Below the pieces are notes generated by a model. The model was not told the DNA's origin, searched no databases, and saw nothing but the letters and a program-made list of their open reading frames with translations. A stretch of 64,000 bases of DNA from Natrinema marinum (lineage in GTDB: Archaea > Halobacteriota > Halobacteria > Halobacteriales > Natrialbaceae), in assembly GCF_024296685.1 (NCBI RefSeq), contig NZ_CP100763.1:1240001-1304000 (forward strand), read 5' to 3'. The translations under genes were made by a program, and so were the position numbers. This document shows positions 38,326-39,559 of the stretch, in pieces; the first letter of the stretch is position 1, and each line of letters starts with the position of its first letter.

Positions 38326-38688
38326 TCAGTCGAGGTCCTCGACCTTGTCGGCGATATCCTCGACGTCGTCGCCCGCCTCGCCGGCGTCGACGATCGCCGC
38401 GGCGGCCGAGCCGACCTCGAGGCCGGCGGCGTGGCCGACGTCGTCTTGGGTCTCGATGAAGACGACGGGAATGCCTTTCTCGTCGGCGAGTTCCGGGAGG
38501 TGCATCACGATCTCCTCGGGAGAGACGTCTTCGGCGACGTAGACGAGGTCGGCGTTGCCACGCTCGATGGCCTTCGTCGTTTCGTTCGTTCCTTTCTTTA
38601 CGCGTCCGGTGTCTCGTGCGACCTCGAGCGCCTCGAGGGCGTCGTCGGCGAGGTCGGCTGGGATGTCGGTTGTGACGTATACTGACAT
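38326..38688 (-). CDS. rpl7ae: Ribosomal protein L7Ae (k-turn binding)
   Basis: The 120-aa RNA-binding protein is read from [13 protein letters not shown]. The L7Ae core includes [47 protein letters not shown], where [12 protein letters not shown] is the k-turn RNA-binding loop. It is part of the large subunit and of box C/D, H/ACA and RNase P particles. First gene of the operon. Its 5' leader is about 127 nt long and heavily structured, unusual in this largely leaderless genome, which suggests control at the RNA level. Confidence 0.96.
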
Positions 38689-38703
38689 TGGTTGTTCACC
38701 TCT

Positions 38704-38810
38704 CCTACGCGTGGGCTCGCGCTCCCCTGCCGTCCGGGTGCTGGGACCCGGGCCGGGTTCGACCCGGCGGAAGTCCTGTGAGGCTAGGAGCATCATCAAC
38801 CCCACGTAGG
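38704..38810 (-). promoter_or_regulatory. Structured 5' leader of rpl7ae with k-turn-like internal loop
   Basis: The likely TATA box is CTTTTAA (minus strand, ~38838-38844), giving a start near 38815 and a leader of about 127 nt. Nested pairings, in plus coordinates, are 38704-38709 (CCTACG) with 38805-38810, 38712-38715 (TGGG) with 38801-38804, and 38721-38725 (GCTCC) with 38787-38791. They flank a 9/5-nt internal loop whose longer side reads GUUGAUGAU in the RNA. Inner GC-rich hairpins lie at 38734-38751 and 38753-38767. Confidence 0.5.
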
Positions 38811-38910
38811 GTGTACACCTCAGTAGCGCTGCCCCCCTTAAAAGCGTGTTCAAACGATCGCAGGCATGCAATCGGTCCGCATAGAGATCGGGGTCGCGGC
38901 TCGAAGGTGG

Positions 38911-39081
38911 TTACGAGAGGAGCCAGAGGAGTGCCAGTAGAAGAATCGGGCTACCGAGGAGGAAAACCACGCTGAGGATCGGAAGCCACTGGGAGAGCGC
39001 AGCGAGAACCAGCGTCGCGGCGATGGTTCCCAACAATATGATGATTACGTTAAGACGGAATATGATTTCATCATCGTTCAT
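38911..39081 (-). CDS. Small two-helix membrane protein, unknown
   Basis: The 56-aa protein is read from MNDDEIIFRLNVIIILLG; the in-frame extension upstream is unlikely. Two hydrophobic segments (VIIILLGTIAATLVLAAL and ILSVVFLLGSPILLLALLWLL) fill nearly the whole chain. No family is recognised. It is followed by the rpl7ae promoter region and lies downstream of another small membrane gene on the same strand, possibly as an operon with it. Confidence 0.5.
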   Translation of the reverse strand: MNDDEIIFRLNVIIILLGTIAATLVLAALSQWLPILSVVFLLGSPILLLALLWLLS

Positions 39082-39130
39082 TTCACTAAACTCACACACC
39101 CATGGTAAAAATGACTTTGAAATAATTGCG

Positions 39131-39559
39131 TCACCGCCGCTGCTCGAGACGATCGCTGAGTCGACGAGTGACACCACGCTCGACGAATCGATGAATAGCC
39201 GTCTCGAGGAGCACTGCGACGGCGAGAACGGTTCCGGACATGAGTGTGAGGAGTCCGCCACCGAAGAGACTGCCCGCAGTCCCTGCGTACAGCGAGTACA
39301 GACTCACCCCTGCGAGCCACAGCGTCAGTGCTCCGACCAGCCCGACCAGTATCGAGCCGAGAGTGATCCCGTTCCGAACGACGCCGAAAAGAGCGAGAAG
39401 GCCGAGCACCCCCGGAACGACGAGTTCGGGAGTGACCGGGACCGGTCCGATCGTCGGCCACGTGGGATACGGCTGCGGGAGTTGTGCGGCCATCGTGCCG
39501 ACTAGCAGAAGGACGAGCACCGCGAGCACGACCGCAAACGCTCTGAGGGCCGCACCCAT
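39131..39559 (-). CDS. Four-helix membrane protein, unknown
   Basis: The 142-aa protein has a first helix or signal (~5-25), then hydrophobic segments at ~45-62, ~67-92 and ~98-120, and an arginine-rich cytoplasmic end (RFVERGVTRRLSDRLEQRR). No catalytic residues or named family can be recognised. Its composition is halophile-typical and the ATG is well placed. It is followed on the same strand by the 56-aa membrane protein after 49 bp. Confidence 0.55.
   Translation of the reverse strand: MGAALRAFAVVLAVLVLLLVGTMAAQLPQPYPTWPTIGPVPVTPELVVPGVLGLLALFGVVRNGITLGSILVGLVGALTLWLAGVSLYSLYAGTAGSLFGGGLLTLMSGTVLAVAVLLETAIHRFVERGVTRRLSDRLEQRR

Follow-up and report, generated by a model that had tools for sequence, protein, structure and literature searches.

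The gene for ribosomal protein L7Ae of Natrinema marinum is preceded by a long, folded 5' leader that is a real, conserved RNA element of haloarchaea and that carries, in its internal loop, the signature of a k-turn of the L7Ae type. We propose that it probably acts as a cis-acting ribosomal-protein leader, such that L7Ae would bind the k-turn in the leader of rpl7ae and block initiation. The original prediction had raised the possibility of an autoregulatory site, and this idea gains support, by inference, from the motif, from the identity of the gene and from the published archaeal l7ae leaders. Coordinates refer throughout to the window, that is, to the whole 64,000-nt stretch of DNA that was analyzed.

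Results

The rpl7ae gene and its operon

Rpl7ae lies on the minus strand with its ATG at 38688-38686, and its leader is therefore the minus strand of 38704-38810. The gene product contains the Pfam domain Ribosomal_L7Ae (85.1 bits); its best PDB match is the eL8 chain 9l94_E (1.9e-60), L7Ae of PDB entry 1s72 is matched as well (1.2e-57), and the genome holds a single match to the L7Ae protein (E <= 0.001). Downstream of rpl7ae, and on its strand, genes for S28e, L24e and Ndk are found in 80, 79 and 79, respectively, of 80 related loci, which are the best 80 of 351, come from named species and over-represent the Natrialbales for that reason.

Two side observations concern the immediate surroundings. 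Valine codons 3 and 5 of rpl7ae (window 38688-38662) are GTA in 49/149 and 87/149 genes, as against 93/1524 later valine codons (positions 9-119) in 114 genes, an enrichment that general AT-richness of gene starts may explain. Upstream of the promoter, minus-strand positions 38911-39261 contain an open frame of 116 aa that has a hydrophobic C-terminal half and no Pfam match at E <= 0.001.

Fold and anatomy of the leader

The nested helices that had been read from the sequence of the leader were borne out by folding: the minus strand of 38810-38704 reaches -60.3 kcal/mol (z -4.44), as compared with -44.5 +/- 3.6 kcal/mol for its dinucleotide shuffles, none of which (0/200) was equally stable. 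The longer minus-strand segment 38818-38687 gave a z of -3.79, and the plus strand with its flanks showed no unusual fold stability (z -0.25, 70/200 shuffles equally good). The ends assigned at the outset, 38810 and 38704, coincide exactly with those of the outer helix P1, and the element in its full extent spans 38818-38690 according to a covariance model (86.1 bits, E 1e-28). From promoter to gene, the parts are the following.

38838-38843, minus strand: TATA-like box TTTTAA of the rpl7ae promoter (from the sequence; spacing as in relatives)
38811-38818, minus strand: conserved 5' flank GUGUACAC, the predicted first nucleotides of the transcript; the covariance-model match begins at 38818
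38803-38810, minus strand: 5' strand of P1a, 8 bp of the C-helix (96.7% of cells paired)
38799-38802, minus strand: 5' strand of P1b, GGGU, ending in the -1b U (98.2% paired)
38795-38798, minus strand: k-turn bulge UGAU (L loop), its last base being L3 = U (parsing of 137 rows)
38793-38794, minus strand: G1b and A2b, the sheared-pair dinucleotide of the b strand (GA in 137/137 distinct rows)
38787-38791, minus strand: 5' strand of P2, GCUCC (NC helix; covariation)
38782-38786, minus strand: 5' strand of P3, UAGCC (covariation)
38774-38780, minus strand: apical unpaired CACAGGA, of which GGA is conserved
38732-38773, minus strand: lineage-specific apical hairpins, two in the window by folding; other families have none or different ones
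38727-38731, minus strand: 3' strand of P3, GGCAG (covariation, as for the 5' strand)
38726, minus strand: single unpaired G between P2 and P3 (fold)
38721-38725, minus strand: 3' strand of P2, GGAGC (covariation, as for the 5' strand)
38717-38720, minus strand: k-turn n strand GCGA, with 4n, 3n, 2n (G38718) and 1n (A38717) (parsing of 137 rows)
38713-38716, minus strand: 3' strand of P1b, GCCC (covariation; U-G pair at the kink)
38712, minus strand: bulged base between P1b and P1a (A in 79, G in 51 and C in 7 of 137)
38704-38711, minus strand: 3' strand of P1a, CGCGUAGG, ending 15 nt before the AUG
38696-38702, minus strand: Shine-Dalgarno-like GAGGUGA directly 3' of P1, its core outside P1 in the window
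38326-38688, minus strand: rpl7ae coding sequence (Pfam), first gene of rpl7ae-rps28e-rpl24e-ndk

P3 in the window includes one U-G and one A-A. The UACA of the 5' flank stands at 38815-38812 and keeps the same register in 115/137 rows; together with the start of the coding region it pairs in the fold of the window, a pairing for which no usable covariation was found. The GGA loop could pair with the 5' flank in 105/137 rows, as against 98.3 after shuffling, a weak association that 3/1000 shuffles equalled in this comparison without tree correction and from which we claim no contact. P1 is predicted to be stable without protein, with a mean pairing probability of 0.95 over the 137 leaders, a minimum of 0.63 and 0/137 leaders below 0.5, as computed at 37 C with standard parameters and at a salt concentration other than that of these cells.

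Promoter spacing and the predicted transcript start

Among the 178 leaders described below, the first T of the TATA-like box lies 24-26 nt from the start of the segment (3 nt before UACA) in 164, and this spacing is fixed while the length of the segment, from the 5' edge of the element to the ATG, varies between 90 and 212 nt. Since the spacing in the window matches that in its relatives, a start near 38816 and a leader of ~128 nt are predicted, very close to the ~127 nt originally claimed. Read most simply, the TATA spacing places the start of transcription at the 5' edge of the element, and it speaks against a start close to the ATG. In Hfx. mediterranei, a 42-nt minus-strand RNA, HM10_V, and a 27-nt plus-strand RNA, HM9_V, are tabulated for the gap that separates HFX_2748 (rpl7AE) from HFX_2747 (PMC5852579), and we infer from the order of the locus tags that this gap is the one upstream of rpl7AE. 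The figures given for Hfx. volcanii, where 72% of protein-coding transcripts are leaderless and 97 5'-UTRs exceed 150 nt, make long leaders in that species uncommon, not unique (PMC4983044).

A stable predicted fold at the predicted 5' end, set at a constrained distance of P1 from the AUG, could perceivably serve just to stabilize the message or to enhance its translation, protecting an abundant mRNA and presenting its AUG with no feedback at all. We regard this as improbable, because stability alone would presumably not call for an elaborate k-turn with invariant sheared-pair bases, and because the genome contains one strong match to the model, at rpl7ae.

Compensatory changes support the helices

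We gathered 182 haloarchaeal upstream regions, 80 loci from named species and the rest from GTDB genomes. Four were left out before alignment (L098, which was not oriented, and L163, L165 and L166, which were without the motif), leaving 178 leaders, with segments excised by motif pattern in 169 cases and by hand in 9; the element thus occurs in 178 of the 181 oriented rpl7ae upstream regions. These 178 leaders do not stand for 178 species, some species being present in both collections, and they comprise 137 distinct core rows.

A first alignment was drawn from the 178 as 42 leaders with segments of at most 104 nt, less than 96% alike and with the window excluded. Over the 22 proposed pairs, 89.2% of cells were standard pairs as opposed to 76.7 +/- 0.8 in shuffles, double-change cells numbered 104 versus 30.3, and the covariation score was 0.402, as against 0.167 in shuffles and no more than 0.110 in slid alignments; a shift of the partner by 1-3 columns brought pairing down to 39-48%. 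Changes on both sides were seen in 15/22 pairs where 11.2 were expected, and 2/500 shuffles reached 15.

Because shuffles ignore relatedness, we also used a tree-preserving null, in which the inferred substitutions were redistributed, in 400 simulations, over a FastTree phylogeny of these 137 rows. Covariation of the helices in other haloarchaea, which had been named as a check on the prediction, proved strong: the 137 leaders contain 33 compensatory double events versus 2.9 +/- 1.7 under the null (0/400), 49 pair breaks versus 107.6 +/- 7.1 (0/400) and 91.7% pairing versus 76.8% (0/400). P1a carries most of the signal (21 double events, null mean 1.0, 0/400). P1b is 98.2% paired (0/400) with 3 double events, a number reached by 5/400 simulations, and P2 is 94.3% paired (reached by 1/400) with 4 double events (null mean 0.8, reached by 9/400). 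P3 has 5 double events (null mean 0.5, 0/400), and its percentage paired (75.9) is no better than the null, 73/400 simulations reaching it. An unrestricted pairwise G-test with APC over the 137 rows, with the same null, returned only one column pair at E < 0.05, in P1a; such an all-column test is much less powerful than the pair-restricted tree test. The structure and the tree were both derived from the tested sequences, and the covariation tests are thus not fully independent.

These substitution patterns also bear on the notion that the region is conserved as DNA or protein, either as promoter DNA or as an extension of the L7Ae N terminus that begins at a TTG further upstream (ORF 38871-38326). 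An open frame does span the leader in the window; segment lengths, however, fall into all three classes modulo 3 (41, 63 and 74 of 178), an in-frame stop occurs in 100/137 leaders, and the changes are compensatory in RNA pairs, so that the general form of this explanation is already contradicted by lengths, stops and covariation, and we consider it scarcely credible.

The apical GGA is present in 137/137 distinct leaders, 9-28 nt after the k-turn GA and at an offset of 15-17 in 129 of them. Neither this invariant GGA nor the register of UACA is required for a plain k-turn. As a separate observation, close relatives (L006, L014, L017, L020 and L034) differ strongly in the length and sequence of the apical insert between GGA and P3, while both flanks of this insert hardly change and the segment grows to as much as 212 nt.

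The internal loop has the signature of a k-turn on the second UGA

As had been claimed, UGAUGA (38798-38793) faces CGAG (38719-38716) on the minus strand, and the loop is flanked by the C helix (P1) and the NC helix (P2), both supported by covariation. With positions named after Liu and Lilley as in PMC6298567, the 137 distinct rows were parsed by a k-turn parser that required U-GA, and all rows fitted: L3 is U, 1b2b is GA and 1n is A in 137/137, and 2n is G in 129 rows and A in the remaining 8. The -1b:-1n pair is U-G in 129, U-A in 4, C-G in 3 and A-G in 1. The bulge has 4 nt in 120/137 leaders, the window included (UGAU in 114, CGAU in 6), and 3 nt in the other 17 (UGU in 7, CAU in 5, CGU in 5). 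Since these 3-nt variants do without the first GA of UGAUGA, the conserved tandem pair is that of the second UGA. The sequence signature is thus that of a k-turn of the L7Ae type that uses the second UGA, a motif that L7Ae would be expected to bind; the loop may alternatively adopt a register with a GAU bulge and one unpaired U. The partial fit to box D that had been conceded at the outset is mostly resolved by the second-UGA register, with U-GA and 1n = A throughout, and what persists of the misfit is the 4-nt bulge of most lineages.

A C at 3b or a G at 3n is described as favoring ion-induced folding of k-turns (PMC6298567), and the haloarchaeal leaders have 3b = C in 12/137 and 3n = G in 1/137. 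If these rules are extended to them, an extension that is ours, most haloarchaeal leader k-turns would need protein to kink.

The box C/D k-turn sets UGAUGA against CUGA or CGA, with a U before the GA, and is recognized in the L7Ae manner. Its UGAUGA opposite CUGA or CGA and its U before GA are shared by the haloarchaeal leader, which differs from box C/D guide RNAs in having mostly a 4-nt bulge and in lying within an mRNA leader. An independent small or guide RNA of the box C/D or H/ACA type that shares the rpl7ae promoter would account for the box C-like UGAUGA, for the perfect CUGA n strand seen in 10/137 rows (mostly of the Halorussus type) and for the small RNAs tabulated in the gap beside Hfx. 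mediterranei rpl7AE (PMC5852579). It is nonetheless very improbable in our judgment: inspection of the alignment by eye found one C-like and one D-like strand only, with no guide segments, no second C'/D' pair and no pseudouridylation pocket, and P1 ends 10-17 nt before the AUG in 178/178 leaders. Of the 4227 families of Rfam 15, moreover, only a tRNA elsewhere in the window reaches its gathering score, and the highest-scoring family within the leader reaches 18.3 bits, where its cutoff is 45, and does so on the other strand.

Mimicry of 23S rRNA was considered and, at the sequence level, rejected: a blastn-short comparison between the leader and one rRNA operon locus yielded matches of chance length only (exact matches of at most 10 nt and one of 13 nt with a mismatch). 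The 23S helix-15 k-turn, at the place that we take it to occupy, looked by eye unlike that of the leader.

Distribution across haloarchaea and beyond

The covariance model, built from the 42 haloarchaeal leaders without the window, scored 86.1 bits in the window and 14.8 bits at the next best place in the genome. It matches 285/292 haloarchaeal genomes (E <= 0.001), and in a set of 120 genomes of the phylum each of the 19 haloarchaea has its best match directly adjoining rpl7ae. The 101 non-haloarchaeal genomes of the phylum yielded four weak matches (18-22 bits), none of them in an l7ae leader; one, in G346, is antisense to and overlaps the coding sequence of L7Ae, and the other three are on contigs without L7Ae. 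Among the haloarchaeal genomes, only G002 and G291 gave a second match (21.9 and 24.7 bits); these second matches, which by eye lie in or antisense to coding sequence, were dismissed as chance.

Seven haloarchaeal genomes were missed. G130 shows 39.8 bits beside rpl7ae under laxer filters. For G137 and G182 (L131 and L159), which score 14.6 and 21.0 bits off register, the element is visible by eye with long or unusual apical parts. G021, G217 and G285 have no model match at E <= 1; their leaders (L163, L166 and L165, of families f5 and f11) are without the large element and show by eye a short stem flanked by (U)AUGA or UGAUGA and GAACGAGG, like compact archaeal leaders. It is possible, judging from these sequences, that such short hairpin leaders are the ancestral form. 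An automatic scan for compact k-turns matched 2/3 of the f5/f11 haloarchaea versus 7/60 shuffles, which is a lead only, as the scan did not discriminate between non-haloarchaeal l7ae leaders (21/40) and shuffles (398/800).

Two further observations were made along the way. A doublet ATGA-N1-2-RATGA occurs in the last 150 nt of 37/40 non-haloarchaeal Halobacteriota l7ae leaders (L185-L224), as opposed to 5/800 mononucleotide shuffles and 0/178 haloarchaeal regions (last 230 nt), and provides two overlapping candidate b strands, which might correspond to two registers or two L7Ae sites. A full-length copy of the leader, 90.8% identical, is found at 401723-401884 of CP031304.1, a 987-kb Natrinema thermotolerans record from the plasmid collection.

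Discussion

A proposed model for L7Ae autoregulation

According to the model that we favor, the rpl7ae transcript would start at the 5' edge of the element, and its leader would fold into the 12-bp C-helix (P1), the L7Ae-type k-turn (UGAU-GA opposite GA) and the P2/P3 helix with the conserved GGA loop. Free L7Ae in excess of its sites in rRNA and guide RNAs would bind the leader k-turn and lock the leader in a closed, kinked form, which would prevent ribosome loading at the AUG 10-17 nt beyond P1. As a result, less L7Ae, and perhaps also less S28e, L24e and Ndk, would be synthesized. That L7Ae is the ligand is suggested by the fact that the single strong match of the model in the genome lies at rpl7ae.

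How initiation would be blocked deserves separate consideration. An exact match of at least 5 to GGAGGUGAUC is found in the last 22 nt of 125/137 leaders, and the SD core adjoins the C-helix at its kink-distal end, 12 bp away from the kink. In Hfx. volcanii, SD motifs reportedly do not drive initiation (PMC3986360), the match is 4 or less in 12/137 leaders, and the spacer from P1 to the AUG is 10-17 nt in 178/178; for these reasons we consider it more likely, with moderate confidence, that a structure is locked within the initiation footprint than that the SD is simply masked. Weighing against an autoregulatory switch are the 4-nt bulge of 120/137 leaders, the SD core outside P1 in the window together with the reported dispensability of SD motifs in Hfx. 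volcanii, and the predicted stability of P1 on its own, given that the A. fulgidus leader opens up to folding only with L7Ae, its RNA being open beforehand.

It is also conceivable, if rather doubtful, that the leader is a preformed two-site RNP switch and not one that folds on binding; the kink induced by L7Ae would then bring the GGA loop back against the SD/AUG region and the base of P1. Room for this reading is left by the GGA loop and the UACA, neither of which a plain k-turn requires. The 12 bp of P1 below the kink and the ~10 bp of P2/P3 above it would then be matched in length, and the initiation site would be closed by the tertiary contact, or an SD-like decoy would be presented to 16S rRNA. 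If true, this would make the leader a k-turn-driven regulator that does not rely on SD masking.

The invariance of the GGA loop (137/137) is not explained by L7Ae, which raises the question of whether a different ligand, such as S28e, L24e or some unknown factor, reads the GGA loop or P1 while the k-turn is only architectural, much as tertiary contacts hold a k-turn in the SAM-I riboswitch (PMC3651934). Indeed, 79-80 of the 80 loci (the best 80 of 351) also encode S28e, L24e and Ndk. Such a ligand is nevertheless unlikely, considering that the invariant internal loop is an L7Ae-type k-turn placed before the L7Ae gene itself and that l7ae leader k-turns of other archaea respond to L7Ae.

Relation to known leaders

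Autoregulation by L7Ae has precedents. L7Ae of S. acidocaldarius lowers the expression of E. coli reporters carrying its own l7ae leader, as well as that of reporters with ~50 bp taken from the l7ae leaders of other archaea, among them H. volcanii (PMC5539422), and A. fulgidus L7Ae binds and folds its own leader, which is open before binding, with SD occlusion as the expected outcome (PMC6298567). These compact leaders (PMC5539422, PMC6298567) have in common with ours the gene, the position upstream of the SD and a GAU-containing bulge followed by GA opposite GA. They are described as short (~50 bp were tested) and of low intrinsic stability, with the SD very near the k-turn, whereas the haloarchaeal leader spans ~90-210 nt, combines a C-helix of 12 bp with a further conserved helix and a GGA loop, and is predicted to be stable alone. 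The model of Huang et al. 2019, in which the leader is unstructured until L7Ae binds (PMC6298567), thus does not fit the in-silico prediction for the haloarchaeal leader, in which the mean pairing probability of P1 is 0.95. The standard k-turn has a 3-nt bulge, seen here in 17/137 leaders as opposed to 4 nt in 120/137 in the register used. With its mostly 4-nt bulge and its predicted stability without protein, the haloarchaeal leader is a variant of the known l7ae leader switches and not a standard member.

In the text of Daume et al. 2017, high conservation of the leader is stated only for Sulfolobales, and a figure legend puts the Kt-b strand of H. volcanii further upstream in the alignment (PMC5539422). 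Because at least 65 nt separate the AUG from the b-strand GA in 178/178 leaders, a construct of 50 bp contains the n strand of the element without its b strand.

The 20 new r-leader motifs in Table 1 of Eckert and Weinberg 2020 include none for l7ae, and eL7 is named in the legend to their Figure 1, a figure that may count an earlier L7Ae leader (PMC7247131). Their archaeal r-leaders, among them an S15 leader of Halobacteria, are likewise supported by covariation and placed before ribosomal protein genes (PMC7247131). We found no printed description of a haloarchaeal l7ae leader domain in the open-access literature; subscription papers may hold one. In yeast, the L7Ae-family protein L30e likewise regulates its own transcript via a k-turn, which differs from ours in acting on splicing and translation, in a eukaryote and in a different structural context (PMC6298567).

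Implications

Haloarchaea are described as mostly leaderless, with translational control by structured leaders not being typical of them (PMC4983044). The covariation-backed leader of rpl7ae, found in 178/181 regions and 285/292 genomes, is a clear exception. The published 50-bp H. volcanii construct could not have contained both strands of the k-turn together, and the Haloferax rpl7ae leader offers a tractable system in which to study protein-binding leaders where SD pairing reportedly does not drive initiation. The leader further suggests a possible route of growth from a compact k-turn switch to a larger RNA domain.
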